Source: a virus. Taken from it: DNA of 26,348 bases. The stretch's first letter is position 1; every line of letters begins with the position of its first letter. Shown here one piece after another: positions 9,386 to 22,374 of the stretch. The stretch is from positions 1-26,348 of the IMG/VR virus record IMGVR_UViG_3300003690_000058; one strand, written 5' to 3'. The notes below the pieces were generated by a model. The model was given only the letters and a program-made list of their open reading frames with translations, did no database searches and was not told where the DNA came from. Made by a program: the position numbers and the translations under genes.

Positions 9386-10099
9386 ATGGCTAGTTCAGGA
9401 ACATATTTAAACATAACTTTGCCCGATGTAGGAACTACCTTAGGACCGACATGGGCTACCCAATTAAACTCTGCTTGGCAAAGTTTAGATTCACACGATC
9501 ACAGTAGCGGCAAAGGAGCGCAAGTTCCTTCAGCAGGTATAAGTATTAATGCTAATTTATCCTTTGCAACGGCTGGCACATCATATAAGGCTACAGATTT
9601 GGAGAGTCTTAAGTTTACGAATAATGCAGGTACAGCTTTTACTTCAACTGCTTATGATAATTCTGCATTTAGTGAAGGAGGAACTGGAGAACTTTATTAT
9701 ATAAACTCTGATAATGCTAAATGCCAAATTACAAATGGAACTGTTGTTAACGTCGCCGGACAGGCAGCTATAAAATATAGTGTGTTATTAATTTCTGATG
9801 ATACTACTCTTGCTTTGTCAGATAATTATTCTCTTTATTTAGTAAACAGTAGTACAGTAGCTATTACCGTTACTCTACCTGCAGCCAGTACAGGTACAGA
9901 TGGAAGATTTGTAATAATAAAAGATTATTCAGGAAACGCTAGTACTTATAATATAGGTATAAGGGGCAATGGTTCAGAGCAAATAGATGGAGCAGGTACT
10001 TCTACTACAGATGCTTATACTATAGCTTCTAACTATGGGTCTGTAATTATTGCTAACTATACTTCAGGAACTGGTAATGCTAAATGGACAATCGTATAA
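9386..10099 (+). CDS. Putative tail fibre/spike protein with HDHS motif
   Basis: 237 residues. The N-terminal part has the tail-fibre pattern LPDVGTTLGPTWATQLN ... LDSHDHSSGKG (His37-Asp-His39), often used by phage fibres to dock on the tail and perhaps bind metal. The C-terminal domain (about residues 145-237) is beta-rich: YSLYLVNSSTVAITVTLP ... IIKDYSGNA ... IDGAGTS ... IASNYGSVIIANY. The same module, clearly homologous, forms most of the 118-residue protein at 22018-22374 (shared VTLP, IDGA and IASNYGS). This suggests a shared trimeric or carbohydrate-contact domain used in two places on the virion. It lacks the length of a full host-range fibre, so it may be a short adaptor fibre. The SD is AGGATA. 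Confidence 0.72.
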   Translation: MASSGTYLNITLPDVGTTLGPTWATQLNSAWQSLDSHDHSSGKGAQVPSAGISINANLSFATAGTSYKATDLESLKFTNNAGTAFTSTAYDNSAFSEGGTGELYYINSDNAKCQITNGTVVNVAGQAAIKYSVLLISDDTTLALSDNYSLYLVNSSTVAITVTLPAASTGTDGRFVIIKDYSGNASTYNIGIRGNGSEQIDGAGTSTTDAYTIASNYGSVIIANYTSGTGNAKWTIV

Positions 10100-13615: not shown

Positions 13616-15301
13616 ATGAAAGATAAAAAATTTAAACCAAGCTTAAAGGATACTGCTCGAAGGGCTAGGATTATATCCGACATTAAGGCATTTGAAAAGT
13701 CTAAAAATATCCCCAACGGAGAAAGACTCAAAAAAGGAGTAGATGCTCCAGTTCAAATTCCTATAACACCGAAAGGTGGTCACAGAGGAGAGTCTGAAAA
13801 TCATGGAAAATTTGGAGCCTTAGACGTAGGTATAGCTCACTTACCCGATGATGTTCAAGCTGAGTTCATAGAATTTATGACAACCAAAGGACATAGAGTT
13901 TATGATGAAAGAGATGAAATCTCTAAAGACCCTAAGAAACAAGCTTTAGGCTTAAGAGCTGGTATAGTTCATATAGATGATAATGTAGATGAAAAAGTAG
14001 CTGACCCTGAAAAGAATTTTGTTCTTGAAAAAGATGAGTCTGATATAGAAAGTGGGTATAAAGACGAACACGGAGATCAGCATCATGGACATGGTACTGG
14101 TGGTGTTTATTCTGGCACTAGGGCTCGGGGCTATGGCTCTGGCTCAGGTGGTGGTACTTACATGCAAGGTGCTCCACCCAGTCGGAAGGGTGGCAAATCC
14201 CAAATAAAACCTTCTGTAAACTGGGCAAAAAAAGCAGCAGACGCCGAGGCAGCTCGGGCAAAGATAGCAGCAGAAGCTGCAGCATATAGAGAAAAAACTA
14301 AAGATTATGAAACCCTAAAAACTAGAAAAGAAGAACTAGAGTCCAAACCATTTAAAGCTCAAAGACAACAAATGATACGACAAGAAGCTCAAGCTAAAGG
14401 GTTAGCTCCATCTCAGGCTGAAGCAGCTATGAAACGTACTGAAGAACGTCTATTTCAACAACAGTTAGCAGCTACTAAAGGGCAAAGAGGTGGAGGAGCT
14501 TCAAGGATTAGAGGATTACGCCGAATGGGTGAAAAAGCCGCTGGTCGTACAGCCGAAATGGGTGCCTTAATGCGTATGAGAGAAAAAGCTATGGCTGAAC
14601 AAGCTTTAAGTGGTTCAGTCTCTACCATGACAGGTCAAGCCCTAAAGGATAGGTGGACCAAAATGGGGCTTGATGTAAATAAAGAAATTGCAAAAATTCA
14701 AGCTGATGCTGCTAGATATGGTGCAGACCTTAGAGCTAGTGCAGCTAGATCCCAAGCCCAAGGGTCAATGATTGGAGGCTTACTCGGAGGGTTAGGAACT
14801 ATAGCCGGATTTGCAATGTTTGGTGGTTCAGATAAAAATATGAAGAAAAAAATTAAAAGAGAAGACTTATATAAAAACGAATATGGAGACTCTTATCCTT
14901 TGTTTGAGAAAGAGGAAGGAGATTCTAAAATCCATACTCCTGTAAAAGTAACTCCTCAAGATTTATTAAAGAAAAAGACTAAACGTCGAAAAGCAGTTAA
15001 ATACGAAAAGGGAGAGCCTAAAGACTTTCATCCCCAAAAGTTTTTAGATGCCTTAAAGCCTCACAGCTTTGAGTATAAGGATAAATTTAAAAAAAATCCC
15101 ATGGGAGGGGAAGGAAGATTTTTGGGTGTAATGGCTCAAGACCTAGAAAAAGCTGGACCAGTTGGAAAGAGTATGGTAGAGGATACCCCAATGGGTAAAC
15201 TAGTTAATTATGGTAAGGGCTTTGGAGCTGTATTGGCTGCACAGGCTCATTTAAACCAAAGACTTAAGGCTCTTGAGTCTAAGAAGAAAAAGAGGAAATA
15301 G
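13616..15301 (+). CDS. Internal/ejection protein: degenerate M15-like module, glycine-zipper segment, S74 chaperone domain
   Basis: 561 residues in four parts. (1) Residues 55-122 resemble an M15 zinc peptidase: His63-x6-Asp70 (HGKFGALD) and His119 (IVHID) match the ligand pattern, but the position three before His119 is Gly116, where M15 enzymes carry the catalytic Glu/Asp. (2) A Gly/His-rich linker (150-195) and a long Ala/Arg/Glu helix (200-380). (3) A glycine-rich hydrophobic segment, 386-402 (IGGLLGGLGTIAGFAMF). (4) A peptidase S74-type intramolecular chaperone: GGSDKNMKKKI with Ser405 and Lys410 as the expected autocleavage pair, then LDALKPHSFEYK, GVMAQDLEKA, LVNYGK and an AHLNQRLKALE helix. 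About 57 polar residues are inserted after the Ser/Lys motif. It is probably packaged in the virion and released with DNA. Domain calls are by motif; the ejection role is inferred. Confidence 0.75.
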   Translation: MKDKKFKPSLKDTARRARIISDIKAFEKSKNIPNGERLKKGVDAPVQIPITPKGGHRGESENHGKFGALDVGIAHLPDDVQAEFIEFMTTKGHRVYDERDEISKDPKKQALGLRAGIVHIDDNVDEKVADPEKNFVLEKDESDIESGYKDEHGDQHHGHGTGGVYSGTRARGYGSGSGGGTYMQGAPPSRKGGKSQIKPSVNWAKKAADAEAARAKIAAEAAAYREKTKDYETLKTRKEELESKPFKAQRQQMIRQEAQAKGLAPSQAEAAMKRTEERLFQQQLAATKGQRGGGASRIRGLRRMGEKAAGRTAEMGALMRMREKAMAEQALSGSVSTMTGQALKDRWTKMGLDVNKEIAKIQADAARYGADLRASAARSQAQGSMIGGLLGGLGTIAGFAMFGGSDKNMKKKIKREDLYKNEYGDSYPLFEKEEGDSKIHTPVKVTPQDLLKKKTKRRKAVKYEKGEPKDFHPQKFLDALKPHSFEYKDKFKKNPMGGEGRFLGVMAQDLEKAGPVGKSMVEDTPMGKLVNYGKGFGAVLAAQAHLNQRLKALESKKKKRK

Positions 15302-15303
15302 AC

Positions 15304-17847
15304 ATGGCTGAACAATTTCAAACAATGGGTGAGCAGCAAGACTACGATGTAGTTAGAGCTTTACCTGCGAAAAATATTTCTGATTATTATGATAATTTCT
15401 ATGGTTACCAAGATTTAGTAGAAAAGTATAAGGAAGCTCCAAGGGGTAAATTTTATCAACAAAAAAAAGATTTCTACGATAAAAAAATTAGTAACATCTT
15501 AGATAAAGAGGGTAGAAGATATACTCCTGAAATGAAAGTAATGAGAGAGTCTTTTTTTGATCAAGATGCTCAAGAAAGAAAAAAAGTAATGGATGTAGTA
15601 TCAGAATTTTTTAAATCAACAGGAGGAAAGGTTCCTGAAAAATTTGTTACAAGTGCAAGACGAGACCCCGAAGTAGGGAGAGCAAAAGGACATGCTAAAT
15701 TTGGTGCTACAGATTTTAACATGGGGCTTTTGCCCAAAGATCAACAAGAAAAATTTATAGATTTTATGAGGCAAAAGCATAGAGTTTTAGATGAAAGGGG
15801 GGCTATTTCTCAAAAAGAATGGAAAAGAAAAGCTGGAAGAGGTAAGGAAATTGTTCATGTAGATGCAATGACTACCGATAAATTTAAAGAACAAGGTGCT
15901 TTTGACAAACCAGGAACTGTTAGAACAGAATTACCAGGAGGAAGGCGTTTAGGGGCTATTCGACCTGGCGGTGACCCTTCCCAAGTTTTGGGTTATAAAA
16001 CAAAATCTAAATTTGCTGATGTTACTAAGGAAAGAGACCAACTTACTACTGACCAGTTTACTGACTATATGGGAAAAATTAGAGAAAAAATAGAAGATGG
16101 GAGTACCTTTGAAGAAGCAAAAGTAGAAGTAGACGAAGAAATAAGAACTCCTGCAGGCGAAGAAATTGAGTCAGATTTTGTAACTCAAACAGATATAGGA
16201 CAATTACCAGGACAGGGACCACAAAGCCAACAAGCTCAGTTTGGAGCAGCTAGATTTGAATCCCCTCAAATAACTCCTGATGTTTCTAGACGCCTTCCTA
16301 CTATGGCTCCTATGGGTGCGCCTGGACAAATTCCTATGCGTGATGCAGGTGCTGTAGAAGAAGAAGAATTTAAAGTTGAGGAAGTTGTTAAAGCTCCAGA
16401 AGTTGAAGCAAAAGTTCCATCTGAAATGCCAGTTGTTAAAGAAGATTTTGCCTATGAGGAAAAAGATAGGTTTGCTAGAGACTTAAGTGAAAATCCTGAA
16501 AAAATAGAAGACATGGATGAATTTGAATTATCTGAGTCTGTAAACAAAATACCTCCTATAGTTTATCGGGGAACTGACGTATTTGACCCATATGCAGTAT
16601 TAAGAAAAAATCTTCTAGACAAATTAGGAAAAGTAAAAAGAACTCAAGCTCCAGAAGCTGTGGGTGTAAGAGAAACAGTTTCTATTTCTAAAGAAGAAGA
16701 ACCTGATATTGTTAAACTTATAGGTGCTAAATCTCCTGAAGAAGGAGCTAAAGATTTTGTTCAAAGAGCGCAAGACATGCTTCAACAAGAACTGGAAAGA
16801 TATAAATCAAAAGAATTTGAACTATCAAAGGTAGACCCTAAAAGATTTTGGAATAATGCTACTACGTCCCAAAAGATATGGGGCGCTATTGGTGTAATGC
16901 TTGGAGCTATTGGTGGAGCTATGTCAGGTCAGCCTAACTATGCAGCTAACATGATTCAAAAAATGATTGATGCAGATATTGATGCTCAAAAAGATACTAA
17001 TGAAAATAAAAGATTGATGAAAAATGAAGCTTATAGAAGAGTTACAATGTCAATTAACAACCTTCAAAGAGCTGAGACTAAAAAATTTCAAAAAGATAAA
17101 TTAAATCTTTTGATACGAGAACTAAACATGAAAATGCAACAGAATCAATTAAAGACTCAAGGTACTGTATTAGCTAAAATAGCAGGAGGAGCAGCTTTTG
17201 CTCAAGGCGGAGTTCCTATTAAAACGTGGAACATTATAAGACAACAAAGTCCTGAATTAGCCAAAAGACTAGAAGATAAGTCTGTTGTTATTGGAGATAA
17301 GATTCAATTTGCTCTAAATAAAGACTTAGCTAAACAACTAAATTCTACTATTAGAGATATGAGATTAGCAGGTAAATCTATACAAAAATTAGGAGAGTTG
17401 TCCGATGATATTAATTGGGCAGACCAAGCTTTTAAACTTCATGCTGCAGGAAAACTAGAAGAAGCCAGAGCCCATGCAAGAGGTTTAATTGGTGTAATGA
17501 GGGAATCTGTTGTGGGTGGTGGTGTTATGACTGAACAAGATAGAAAATTAATTGAAAGTTTAATCCCCAATCCCGATAAGTTTTTTAGGCTAGGTGCTAC
17601 AGACAGGGCTCGTTTAAAGTTTTTGTTTAATAAAGCTAATGATAACTTACAAGGAGCGATGGATAGTGCAGGTATTTCTGCTCCTATAGATGCTAATATT
17701 AAGATAAATCGAGCTAACATAAAACAACACCTACGAAGTGCAGGGTTAGAGTCTACGGCTGAAAATATTAAAAAATCTATAAAAATATTGAAAAAAAATA
17801 AAGTATGGAAGGCACAATCTGCATTGAAATATTTACTCCAAGGATAA
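15304..17847 (+). CDS. Internal/ejection protein with M15-like peptidase module
   Basis: 847 residues. Residues 115-190 hold an M15 zinc-peptidase-like module paralogous to that of the preceding gene: TSARRDPE, His130-x6-Asp137 (HAKFGATD), then Glu182-x-x-His185 (EIVHVD). The His-x6-Asp ... Glu-x-x-His order equals VanX His116/Asp123/Glu181/His184, so this copy could be active, probably cutting peptidoglycan peptides during DNA entry. A long acidic, Pro-rich disordered middle follows (270-480). The C-terminal half begins with FWNNATTSQKIWGAIGVMLGAIGGAMSGQPN (hydrophobic at 525-541) and MIDADIDAQKD, a pattern common in large phage internal virion proteins, then long helices. The SD region is weak because it overlaps a Lys-rich gene end (AAAGAGGAAATAGAC), suggesting coupling to the gene before. 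Virion role likely, enzymatic activity plausible. Confidence 0.75.
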   Translation: MAEQFQTMGEQQDYDVVRALPAKNISDYYDNFYGYQDLVEKYKEAPRGKFYQQKKDFYDKKISNILDKEGRRYTPEMKVMRESFFDQDAQERKKVMDVVSEFFKSTGGKVPEKFVTSARRDPEVGRAKGHAKFGATDFNMGLLPKDQQEKFIDFMRQKHRVLDERGAISQKEWKRKAGRGKEIVHVDAMTTDKFKEQGAFDKPGTVRTELPGGRRLGAIRPGGDPSQVLGYKTKSKFADVTKERDQLTTDQFTDYMGKIREKIEDGSTFEEAKVEVDEEIRTPAGEEIESDFVTQTDIGQLPGQGPQSQQAQFGAARFESPQITPDVSRRLPTMAPMGAPGQIPMRDAGAVEEEEFKVEEVVKAPEVEAKVPSEMPVVKEDFAYEEKDRFARDLSENPEKIEDMDEFELSESVNKIPPIVYRGTDVFDPYAVLRKNLLDKLGKVKRTQAPEAVGVRETVSISKEEEPDIVKLIGAKSPEEGAKDFVQRAQDMLQQELERYKSKEFELSKVDPKRFWNNATTSQKIWGAIGVMLGAIGGAMSGQPNYAANMIQKMIDADIDAQKDTNENKRLMKNEAYRRVTMSINNLQRAETKKFQKDKLNLLIRELNMKMQQNQLKTQGTVLAKIAGGAAFAQGGVPIKTWNIIRQQSPELAKRLEDKSVVIGDKIQFALNKDLAKQLNSTIRDMRLAGKSIQKLGELSDDINWADQAFKLHAAGKLEEARAHARGLIGVMRESVVGGGVMTEQDRKLIESLIPNPDKFFRLGATDRARLKFLFNKANDNLQGAMDSAGISAPIDANIKINRANIKQHLRSAGLESTAENIKKSIKILKKNKVWKAQSALKYLLQG

Positions 17848-17850
17848 CAA

Positions 17851-20247
17851 ATGGCGGAATTTGAAGACATCACATTTACAAAGGAAGAAATTGAATCGTC
17901 AGACTTAAAGGATTCAAATCTTTCAGATCAGGGAACAGAAGAACTCGTAGGTCAAATAGAAGACGATATAGAGTTTGGCAATCGTCCTATTCAAACTGCC
18001 CTGGAATCTGCAGCTAACACAATGTCTTTTGGTATTACAGATCAAGGTATAGCAGCCTTAGGTCCTGAGTACGAAAAAGGATTAAGAGAAAGAAGACAAA
18101 GACATAAATTAGCTAGTGGTGTTGGTGTAGGGGTAGGTATTTTAGGTCCAGCCCTTCTTTCAGGAGGAGGTTCGCTTGTAGGTAAAGCTGCTCAAGGAGC
18201 TGGTTCGGGTATGGCGTCTGCAGCTAAATTAGGAAATTTTGCTGAAAAACTAACAACGGCTGGTATAAAAAAACTCGTAAAAGACACAGGAAGTAAAACG
18301 TTTGCAAAAGAAGTTTTAAGAAAAGGAATAGCAAGAGGTGCAGGTTCAGCCGTAGAGGGAAGTTTATATGGTATAGGACATTTGGTATCTGAGGAAGCTC
18401 TAGGACGATCTGAGTTTAATGCAGAAAATCTTATGGCTTATGGTGGACAAGCTGCTTTATTTGGTGGAGTAGTGGGGGGTTTGTTCGGAGTAACTCCTGC
18501 AATCTACAAAGAGGGAAAAGAAATTATAGTTCCTCGTTTAAAGGGTGGTAAAGTTGTAGGTTTTGTAAATAAAAAAATTAAAAACTTTAAGGATTATTTT
18601 CTTAATCCTGAGTATGCAGCCATGAAATTATCAGGAGCAACTCATAAAAAAATCTCTGAGATTATATCTAAAAATCCTGAATTAGCAGCTAACTTACCTA
18701 AAGTCTTAAAGGATATAATGAAAAAAGACTTAATGTCTTTGACTTCTAATCGTAGACTTTTTGATGCTGCAAATGATTATTTGGAACGAACTGGAAAAAA
18801 GATTGGTCAAACTCTGGACGATATTTCAGCTTCAGCACCTCCTGAAATTTTTCCTACTAAATCTTCTATGTCTTTTGCTATTCAAAATAGATTAGAAAAA
18901 CTTAAGAAAAATCTTAATCTTATAGATGATGTAGGTAAACCAAGAATTGGAACAGGCATAGCCGACGATATTAAGGTTATAGATAAAGAAATTAGAGCAT
19001 GGTCTAAGAACAACTTAGATGATTCGGTTTATGATGCTTCAGCTTTAAATAAAGAAAAGCAGGTTTACCAAGATCGTTCTAATTGGGAGCGTAGAGGTGA
19101 AGTTCCTTTGAGAGAAAAAGTATCTAGAGAAGTTTCTAGAACCTTTAGGGATGAAGTATTAGGTTTTGCCTCTAAAACTGACTCTGCTCTCTATGGTCGG
19201 TTGAAGCAAGAGTTCTTAGACTTTGGAACTATGACTAACTTTTTAGAAAACTTTGGTAGTAAAATTGGTCAACAATCTGGAAAAGCTTTTGACTTTAGTA
19301 GGGACATATTTACAGCCGCTATAGCTGGAAGTATGTTTGATCTTTTAGGTCCTGTTGGAGCCGGTCTTGCTCTTAAGACTTTTGCTAAGTCTGACCTAAA
19401 ACAAAAGATGATTGTATTAACTCAGATAGAAAAAGCTAGTACTAAGGTTCCAGAATTTATAGCTAGGTCAGTTAAAGGCTATATGAAAAAAGGAAAAAAG
19501 CTGAAGGGTGTTGTTGTTCCGTCTACAGTTAAATTGCTTATGGACTCTCCCCTCTCTAAAAAGCCCGACAAACCTTTAACAAAACCAAAGGATGATTCAG
19601 AAGCCCTGGAAAATATGACAGTTAATTTGAGTAGACTTAAATCAGACCCTACGGCTTTATATGGTTCAATGTCCAATAGATTCTTTAGCCTTATGGCTCC
19701 TAAAACTTTTGGTGCTTCAGCTCAAGTCTTTCAAAGAGCTGTAGACTTTTTATCCTCAAAGATTCCAAAACATTCTATGCCTGTTAATCCTTTTTCTAAA
19801 AGAATTTATGAGCCCTCTACTCAGGAAATGTATAAGTTTAAAAAATATCTGGAGGCTGTACAAAATCCTCTAGTAGTAATGCAACACCTCCAAAAAGGAC
19901 AAATAAGTAGAGAAGGGGTGGAAGCAATAAGTTTTGTTTATCCTGAACTCTATATTGAAATGCAAGGTAATGTTTTTAAGCAGTTAGAAAAAAGCCAAGA
20001 TATTGACTATCAGCAAAGACTTCAGCTTGGCATTTTAATGGGTATTCCAACTGATAGAGCCCTGGAACCTGAAGCAATTGCTAGTTTTCAGCAACATTAT
20101 TCTGAAGCTCAAGTTAGTCAAGCTGGAGGTGCCATAGCTCCTAAAAAGGGTATAAGTGCTTCAGCAGCTAAACAGCTAGATATGGCACAATCTCAAGCTA
20201 CCGAAGTTGAAAAAGTCAGTAATCGTAGAGACCTTAACAGGGCTTAA
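17851..20247 (+). CDS. Internal virion/ejection protein, glycine-rich membrane segments
   Basis: 798 residues starting 3 nt after the preceding stop codon. An acidic N-terminus (1-45) precedes a Gly/Ala-rich hydrophobic region, 88-125 (SGVGVGVGILGPALLSGGG), a second such region at about 192-217 (AENLMAYGGQAALFGGVVGG) and a third near 480-510 (AAIAGSMFDLLGPVGAGLAL). The rest is mostly helical and Lys-rich, with a C-terminal Gln/Ala-rich stretch. Proteins with this alternation of glycine-zipper hydrophobic patches and helices are typical of podovirus ejection proteins that leave the capsid and line a channel through the cell envelope (role of T7 gp15/gp16 or P22 gp16/gp20). No lytic transglycosylase signature is visible here, so wall cleavage may fall to the M15-like module of the neighbour. 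Start ATG with AAGGA 7-8 nt upstream. Confidence 0.72.
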   Translation: MAEFEDITFTKEEIESSDLKDSNLSDQGTEELVGQIEDDIEFGNRPIQTALESAANTMSFGITDQGIAALGPEYEKGLRERRQRHKLASGVGVGVGILGPALLSGGGSLVGKAAQGAGSGMASAAKLGNFAEKLTTAGIKKLVKDTGSKTFAKEVLRKGIARGAGSAVEGSLYGIGHLVSEEALGRSEFNAENLMAYGGQAALFGGVVGGLFGVTPAIYKEGKEIIVPRLKGGKVVGFVNKKIKNFKDYFLNPEYAAMKLSGATHKKISEIISKNPELAANLPKVLKDIMKKDLMSLTSNRRLFDAANDYLERTGKKIGQTLDDISASAPPEIFPTKSSMSFAIQNRLEKLKKNLNLIDDVGKPRIGTGIADDIKVIDKEIRAWSKNNLDDSVYDASALNKEKQVYQDRSNWERRGEVPLREKVSREVSRTFRDEVLGFASKTDSALYGRLKQEFLDFGTMTNFLENFGSKIGQQSGKAFDFSRDIFTAAIAGSMFDLLGPVGAGLALKTFAKSDLKQKMIVLTQIEKASTKVPEFIARSVKGYMKKGKKLKGVVVPSTVKLLMDSPLSKKPDKPLTKPKDDSEALENMTVNLSRLKSDPTALYGSMSNRFFSLMAPKTFGASAQVFQRAVDFLSSKIPKHSMPVNPFSKRIYEPSTQEMYKFKKYLEAVQNPLVVMQHLQKGQISREGVEAISFVYPELYIEMQGNVFKQLEKSQDIDYQQRLQLGILMGIPTDRALEPEAIASFQQHYSEAQVSQAGGAIAPKKGISASAAKQLDMAQSQATEVEKVSNRRDLNRA

Positions 20248-20687: not shown

Positions 20688-21971
20688 GTGTCTCAATATA
20701 CTTTTCCCCCAGTTACTATTTCTTCTGTCGGAGTTGATTATGAAGCTGCTAATGCAGCAACGGCTTTACCTAGTACATTAGCCATTATAGGTGGATGGAC
20801 TGGTACAGCTATCACAGTTCTAAAAACTGCTGCTGATGGAGCTTTACAGGTAGATATTGAAAGTAGTGCAACTATAACTGTCAGTGGAACTGTAGCTGTT
20901 TCAGCTATTGCGGCTGAACTACCTGCAGGAACTCAGACTATAGGCGCTGTAACTTTAGCTACAAGTACAGGAGTAGACATTGGTACAGTCGGATTACTGG
21001 CTGGAACTCAATCTATTGGTACGGTTATCCTGGGAGCAGGTTCAGCCAATATAGGTGCTTTAACAGCAGGTACAGCAGAAATTGGAAAACTGGCTGCAGG
21101 TACAGCAAATATTGGAAATGTATCGTTGTTAACTGGAACTCAAGCTATTGGAAGCGTAACTGTTTCGTCTGGTACAATTACGTTAGCAGCAAACTCTGGT
21201 GTAGATATTGGGGATGTTGACGTTACGAGTATAATTCCAGGAGTTGGAGCTACTAATTTAGGTAAAGCAATCCAAAGCGCACAAGGAGTAACTGACACAG
21301 GGGTTCCAGCTTTAGTAGTTAGGAATGATGTTTTAGCAGATTTATCTGGAGCTGATGGAGATTATGCTCCTGTGCAGGTTAATGCAACAGGTGCTGTTTA
21401 TACTGTTTTATCAGCCAGTACAGCAGAAATAGGAAAACTCGCAGCCGGTACAGCTTCAATAGGTACAGTTGTACTCGGAGCTGGAAGTGCAAATATTGGC
21501 GCTTTAACTGCAGGAACAGCCGAAATTGGGAAATTAGCAGCCGGTACAGCAGCTATTGGTAGTGTGACTATAGGCACAAGTACTGGAGTAGATATTGGAA
21601 ACGTTGGATTATTAGCCGGAACAAACGAAATAGGTAAACTTGGAGCAGGTACGGCTATAATTGGTAAAATTCTTCCCAATGCTCCTGTAGATTTTTTAGA
21701 TTCAGGAATTATAGACACCAGTACAGCTAACATAGCAACAGGTGGAACTACAGTTGTAGCTTCCCTAGCAGCAGATTGTAAGGAAATAGAAGTTGTAGAC
21801 GATATTGGAGAGTATATGTCAATGCGTGTAGGTGGAGCAGTTAAAGCCTATCTACCTTTAGGTGGAGGTTCAGTACAGGTCTCTCTTTCAGCTACCGATG
21901 CAGTACAATTATATAGTGAAACAGGTACAGCAATAGCTAGTGGTAGTATTGCTATTAACTTTCTAGGCTAA
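20688..21971 (+). CDS. Repeat-built tail fibre protein, GTG start
   Basis: 427 residues dominated by short repeats of the type AGTAxIGxL, TGVDIGxV and GAGSANIGAL, each about 9-11 residues, filling about residues 75-175 and 240-325. Regular Ile-Gly and Gly-Thr spacing suggests a beta-solenoid or triple-beta-spiral-like shaft. The two repeat fields flank a non-repetitive segment (about 180-240, GVGATNLGKAIQSAQG ... GDYAPVQV). The C-terminal 85 residues (FLDSGIIDTST ... IASGSIAINFLG) form a probable globular head. One 33-residue block occurs twice (21018-21116 and 21462-21560) with 31 identical residues. The start is GTG, with AGGAG (20677-20681) at 6 nt and the preceding stop codon 1 nt away. 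Likely a structural fibre; receptor binding is inferred only. Confidence 0.72.
   Translation: MSQYTFPPVTISSVGVDYEAANAATALPSTLAIIGGWTGTAITVLKTAADGALQVDIESSATITVSGTVAVSAIAAELPAGTQTIGAVTLATSTGVDIGTVGLLAGTQSIGTVILGAGSANIGALTAGTAEIGKLAAGTANIGNVSLLTGTQAIGSVTVSSGTITLAANSGVDIGDVDVTSIIPGVGATNLGKAIQSAQGVTDTGVPALVVRNDVLADLSGADGDYAPVQVNATGAVYTVLSASTAEIGKLAAGTASIGTVVLGAGSANIGALTAGTAEIGKLAAGTAAIGSVTIGTSTGVDIGNVGLLAGTNEIGKLGAGTAIIGKILPNAPVDFLDSGIIDTSTANIATGGTTVVASLAADCKEIEVVDDIGEYMSMRVGGAVKAYLPLGGGSVQVSLSATDAVQLYSETGTAIASGSIAINFLG
21018..21116 (+). repeat. Fibre repeat block, copy 1
   Basis: Thirty-three codons, reading from GTVILGAG to AAGTANIG. They match copy 2 (21462-21560) at 31 of 33 residues but at only 76 of 99 nucleotides: 18 codons differ and 16 of those changes are synonymous. 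Confidence 0.85.
21462..21560 (+). repeat. Fibre repeat block, copy 2
   Basis: The second copy of the 33-codon block, from GTVVLGAG to AAGTAAIG. In copy 1 the TSTGVDIG-xVGLLAGT unit lies before the block; here it lies after it, so the repeat units have been rearranged, not simply duplicated in tandem. Confidence 0.85.
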
Positions 21972-22017: not shown

Positions 22018-22374
22018 ATGCCAGCAGCAATTTTTAATGGAAGTTATGTTAAAATATTAAAAGAAGAACTTAAAGCAAAATCGGGTGGGCTTTTTGATAA
22101 GGTCTACGTGAGTGCCAAATCTACAGCTTTTACAGCAGCCGTAGGTTATACTTATTTAATTAACACTGGAACAGCCATAGCTGTGACTTTACCGTCTGCA
22201 ATAACAAATGCAGCTATAGTGTTTAAGGATTCTACAGGCACAGCAGGAACAAATAATGTAACTATAACCAGAGCCGATTCTGCGACCATAGATGGAGCTA
22301 CTACTCTTGTAATCGCATCAAACTATGGTTCAGCTAAAATTATATCAGATGGAACGAACTGGTTTATAGCATAA
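22018..22374 (+). CDS. Small fibre-associated beta module
   Basis: 118 residues. After a short basic start (FNGSYVKILKEELKAKSGGLFDKVYVSA), the rest is one beta domain: YTYLINTGTAIAVTLPSAI, IVFKDSTGTAGTNNVTITR, IDGATTLVIASNYGSAKIISDGTNWFIA. The same domain forms the C-terminus of the protein at 9386-10099, with common positions YLxN, VTLP, KDxxGxA, IDGA, IASNYGS and a final W-x-I. Freestanding copies like this may trimerise as fibre tips or bridge two fibre proteins. It is flanked by two larger fibre genes and has the strongest SD in the window (AGGAGG) behind a hairpin, suggesting high copy number. Function is inferred from context only. Confidence 0.68.
   Translation: MPAAIFNGSYVKILKEELKAKSGGLFDKVYVSAKSTAFTAAVGYTYLINTGTAIAVTLPSAITNAAIVFKDSTGTAGTNNVTITRADSATIDGATTLVIASNYGSAKIISDGTNWFIA

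Follow-up and report, generated by a model that had tools for sequence, protein, structure and literature searches.

The window analyzed here, a 26,348-base viral sequence from IMG/VR without cellular context, encodes two consecutive proteins, A and B, that begin with homologous modules. By our estimate (probability of about 0.6), these modules are divergent M15/LAS zinc peptidases of the MepK-Peptidase_M15_3 group, carried on probably ejected virion proteins, and the module of B cuts peptidoglycan. The pair recurs in a related virus with its presumed ligands conserved, the N terminus of B is a slot in which domains are swapped among relatives, and the module of A is under purifying selection.

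The three-gene cluster and its paired modules

Genes for the terminase, portal (P22/SU10-like), capsid, and tail proteins precede three consecutive ORFs, A (561 amino acids; 13616 to 15301), B (847 amino acids; 15304 to 17847), and C (798 amino acids; 17851 to 20247). These ORFs and all features of A and B given below lie on the plus strand. Relatives likewise have A, B, and C in this order behind the tail gene, and C is the most conserved of the three. No family model puts a name on these proteins, and sequence searches revealed no relation between them and solved structures or cultured phages. The "ejection-type" label of A and B in the initial annotation is suggested by their position and by candidate membrane segments of C near residues 86 to 111, 200 to 219, and 486 to 508.

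In protein A, the N-terminal M15-like module is followed by a His/Gly-rich linker, an Ala/Gln-rich coiled region, a single hydrophobic stretch at residues 384 to 404, and the C-terminal part. Its conserved scaffold (14207 to 15289) is common to relatives without the module. The C terminus of A contains a Peptidase_S74 (endosialidase chaperone)-like segment (15038 to 15160), for which the match is just below the cutoff in the window and above it in A of the relatives L089 and L092. Peptidase_S74 is usually a tail-spike feature. Since such a C terminus is unusual in an ejection protein, A is possibly located in the tail.

The M15-like module of A spans approximately residues 26 to 132 (13691 to 14011) and that of B residues 80 to 199 (15541 to 15900). 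Direct residue counts reproduce every position named in the initial annotation. In A, H63-x6-D70 (13802 to 13825) would supply metal ligands 1 and 2 and G116-I-V-H119 (13961 to 13972) ligand 3, and the module further contains a G54-G-H-R57-like motif and D97-E98-R99. The corresponding elements of B are H130-x6-D137 (15691 to 15714) and E182-I-V-H185 (15847 to 15858), together with S117-x-x-R120 and D163-E164-R165. The distances from the first to the third ligand are 56 residues in A and 55 in B, as had been described, and the intervening sequence is indeed alignable (LPDDVQAEFIEFM...HRVYDERDEIS in A and LPKDQQEKFIDFM...HRVLDERGAIS in B). A BLASTP comparison of A with B yields 30 identities over 64 positions (47%; 54 bits; E value, 9e-12), indicating that they are paralogous.

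The modules have no match in Pfam, PHROGs, PDB sequences, or cultured phages, and when A, B, or the modules were themselves used as queries, including in pattern scans, no match was returned in IMG/VR, GTDB genomes, or phages. Relatives were therefore identified from conserved gene order, starting from the capsid protein, a search with which gave 95 relatives, and from protein C, whose alignment retrieved 71 loci; the A-B-C region was then compared by synteny. In one relative, L099, the module is present in both A and B, again as a tandem pair, whereas in L106 (L082 denotes the same record) only B contains it. The resulting five-module set (A and B of the window, A and B of L099, and B of L082) is invariant for H-x6-D, D-E-R, and H-x-D. 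The third-ligand His lies in H-x-D as in MepK, both in the window (H119-x-D121 and H185-x-D187) and in the three homologues. Because the ligands recur in L099 (both proteins) and L106/L082 (B), the likeness of the modules goes beyond chance.

An arginine precedes the first His in an S/G-x-x-R motif, which reads S-x-x-R in the three B modules; both A modules have G-x-x-R (GGHR). MAFFT placed the GGHR of A and the SGHR of L099 B in different columns, and the two were paired by eye; given this pairing, a loss of the arginine in A was rejected.

Several other features were observed in these genomes. In A of L099 (4448 to 7456), residues ~169 to 330, after the M15-like module, resemble a Hint (intein/hedgehog autoprocessing) domain (Hom_end_hint, 3.9e-7, just under the cutoff; Hint, 0.02; ...GGGGSCFIAGTLV...VVHNGG). 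This order of an LAS-type zinc domain followed by Hint resembles that of animal Hedgehog precursors. In the window, a head-protease-like fragment (10 to 402) and the terminase ORF flank a 2OG-Fe(II) oxygenase-like gene (726 to 1622; phrog_81, 4e-34), which overlaps the terminase ORF. The products of 22018 to 22374 and 9386 to 10099 share a segment, and relatives of one match the other at 1e-4 to 1e-16, so that two proteins of the tail region have this module in common. Degenerate GTxxIGxVTL-type repeats occupy 20688 to 21971, where relatives seem to vary by whole repeat blocks.

A swap slot at the N terminus of B

Across approximately 30 relatives, the N-terminal part of B varies, and all share the scaffold that follows (residues ~233 to 838; 16000 to 17817) whatever the N-terminal domain. 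The slot contains Phage_lysozyme2 in L086/L096 and L098 (5.7e-10 and 5.3e-13) and Glyco_hydro_108 (3.3e-14) with PG_binding_3 (1.7e-10) in L104. Weak matches were obtained to SLT_3 in L101 (0.002) and to M23 in L105, and a domain without a family name occupies the slot of L097, L100, L102, and L108. In distant relatives, B is mostly short and without any such N-terminal domain.

The slot of L083, L107, L110, and L111 matches, weakly, a second M15-like subtype (A4). In this subtype, a long insert separates S-G-x-R from S-x-H-x-x-G-x-x-x-D, and an Asp possibly replaces the last His. It is listed as weak because its hhalign score against MepK is slightly above the shuffles (25.9 versus a shuffle maximum of 22.5) and the third ligand is not clear; comparing A3 directly with A4 gave no significant match.

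The initial annotation had overlooked this slot, which provides the strongest functional evidence. As sister phages fill it with accepted peptidoglycan hydrolases (GH108 and Phage_lysozyme2), placing a hydrolase at the N terminus of a clustered virion protein, the window B module is likely one too. The earlier suggestion that B is a virion-borne peptidoglycan peptidase is thus plausible.

At the start of B in L097, L098, L100, L102, L106, and L108, an open hydrophobic leader was observed, such as LRAILIFVLLGSTAMA. These genes have two potential Shine-Dalgarno/start pairs, AGGAG...GTG and GGGAG...ATG, which suggest that B occurs in two forms, one with a signal-like leader and one lacking it. 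The second ATG is missing from L101 B, and window B lacks such a leader.

The residue at position -3 and the probable relation to M15 peptidases

Three residues before the last His (position -3), window B has a Glu, and the other four of the five modules (the A modules of the window and L099 and the B modules of L099 and L082) have a Gly. The corresponding stretch of E. coli MepK is S-N-F-V-H-I-D, with Asn at -3; among six phage M15_3 peptidases, this position is taken by N (twice), S, D, G, and T. As an endopeptidase, MepK is active and cleaves 3-3 cross-links in vitro (PMC9249393), and in its Klebsiella homologue YcbK, both HxH and ExxH are reported to be absent (PMC3927764). Since E-x-x-H is missing in the nearest known group and MepK is active, VanX, whose motif it is (PMC3927764), is the wrong yardstick, and Gly at -3 is no sign of inactivity. 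The glutamate of the shared DER motif (E98 in A, E164 in B) could serve as the general base, although this is only a guess.

The A modules of the window and L099 are 68% identical and keep every ligand. For comparison, most other shared structural proteins of the two are 37 to 56% identical, the capsid protein 68%, and one small protein 79%. A dN of 0.23 and a dS of 0.87 (dN/dS, about 0.27) indicate that purifying selection acts on the A module, unlike on a decaying copy. This conservation fits catalysis and a zinc-dependent structure alike and does not by itself separate the two.

The absence of a conserved general base at -3 might indicate that both modules are M15 derived and noncatalytic, functioning as zinc-stabilized peptidoglycan-binding or structural domains. 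A precedent would be the hedgehog N domain, whose retained zinc site is often called pseudo-active (PMC6027127). We regard this as unlikely, as M15_3 enzymes function without Glu at -3 and the B slot elsewhere holds catalytic hydrolase families.

The reading of the initial annotation, in which B is an active VanX-like peptidase with Glu182 as the base and A a zinc-binding but dead, structural paralogue, appears quite improbable. It draws on the E-x-x-H of B and the G-x-x-H of A, and a conserved VanX-type Glu is exactly what the comparison fails to show. The B modules of L082 and L099 carry Gly, accepted M15_3 peptidases have other residues at this position, and A is selectively maintained with all ligands, which together argue against inactivity of the first module on account of Gly116. 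Of the proposed tandem active/inactive pair, the tandem arrangement stands and recurs in L099, but the split into active and inactive copies is not supported. More generally, the ExxH motif alone should not decide whether M15-like domains are active or dead.

The relation to M15 enzymes was assessed with an aligned reference set of seven accepted sequences, E. coli MepK and six phage peptidases. Compared by hhalign, the five-module profile matches this set with an E value of 6e-4, a score of 26.1, and a probability of 29%, with S/G-x-x-R, H, D, and H-x-D all in register. None of 200 column shuffles reached this score (10.3 ± 1.8; maximum, 15.5), windows taken from the unrelated C alignment scored at most 14.3, and the reversed profile scored 13.1. 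The match stays the same when MepK is removed from the reference set. An AF2 model of the five-sequence alignment (mean pLDDT, 70; pTM, 0.68) predicts an M15-compatible topology of helix, (short strand), strand, helix, strand, and strand, in which ligands D58 and H106 (module numbering) fall within strands. A Foldseek search with this model gave no significant match, the top entry of the viral library being a "Peptidase M15A" at an E value of 0.97, and a sequence search for a solved homologue of MepK found none.

The modules share with MepK (YcbK) and Peptidase_M15_2 and M15_3 (LAS, hedgehog/DD-peptidase fold) the S-x-x-R strand, H-x6-D, a terminal [IVF]-H-[IVF]-D, and the dispensability of Glu at -3. 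They differ from this group in having G at +4 rather than +3 after the first His and an inserted RVxDERxxxS segment in place of the GGxGxY strand, and they fall below every threshold for PF01427, PF05951, PF08291, and all of Pfam. By profile comparison, the modules are nearest to the MepK/Peptidase_M15_3 type of zinc peptidase; M15 identity is probable, not proven, and the M15-like assignment of both proteins in the initial annotation is supported by the in-register match. That they are instead unrelated, perhaps metal-binding domains whose H-x6-D and H-x-D arose by convergence is very unlikely, because the four motif elements align in order and well above the shuffled and unrelated controls, even though no family model or fold search is significant and the hhalign probability is low.

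Proposed role and comparison with known systems

If the modules are M15-type peptidases at the N termini of two consecutive virion proteins, the paired modules are probably the means by which this virus cuts the bacterial wall. By analogy with T7, B would deliver its peptidase to the wall as ejection proceeds, and C may reach the inner membrane via its candidate membrane segments. The B module would likely open stem-peptide cross-links locally as a channel across the wall is formed by the ejected proteins. The A copy, an orthologous and selectively kept second copy, probably binds zinc by the same His/Asp/His set and, as neither copy needs Glu at -3, may also be catalytic. More tentatively, both modules could be active zinc peptidases that differ in the bonds they prefer; a single phage would thereby eject two M15-type enzymes, borne by consecutive channel proteins, and the group would reequip the slot with glycosidases or peptidases to suit host wall chemistry. 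A phage group with an interchangeable enzyme slot, putative metallopeptidases, and a kept second copy would make wall chemistry as the driver of swapping directly testable.

VanX (M15D) shares H-x6-D with the modules and E-x-x-H with window B only. It is a soluble dipeptidase, and E-x-x-H is not conserved among the modules. An M15-type domain in a virion structural protein is also known from Ochrobactrum phage vB_OspM_OC, as a virion-associated lysin on a T4 gp5-like hub. That protein differs from those described here in being a T4-like baseplate hub with a clear M15_3 sequence and, over the stretch read, just one M15 copy. According to a review, endopeptidase virion lysins are almost entirely confined to phages that infect Gram-positive bacteria (PMC6116005).

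In T7, the N-terminal part of gp16 cuts peptidoglycan, and in K1E the hydrolase, with lysozyme activity, is on the gp15-type gp35; hydrolase swapping between ejection proteins has already been noted (PMC8954989). As proposed for the cluster described here, a peptidoglycan hydrolase domain is carried on one of three clustered ejection proteins, N-terminally in gp16. In contrast to T7 and K1E, the domain is here a putative metallopeptidase that occurs in two consecutive proteins at once, and a single phage group fills the slot with two or more clear hydrolase types and several weaker ones. The arrangement is probably a variant of the hydrolase-bearing ejection protein in which a second copy is kept in tandem.
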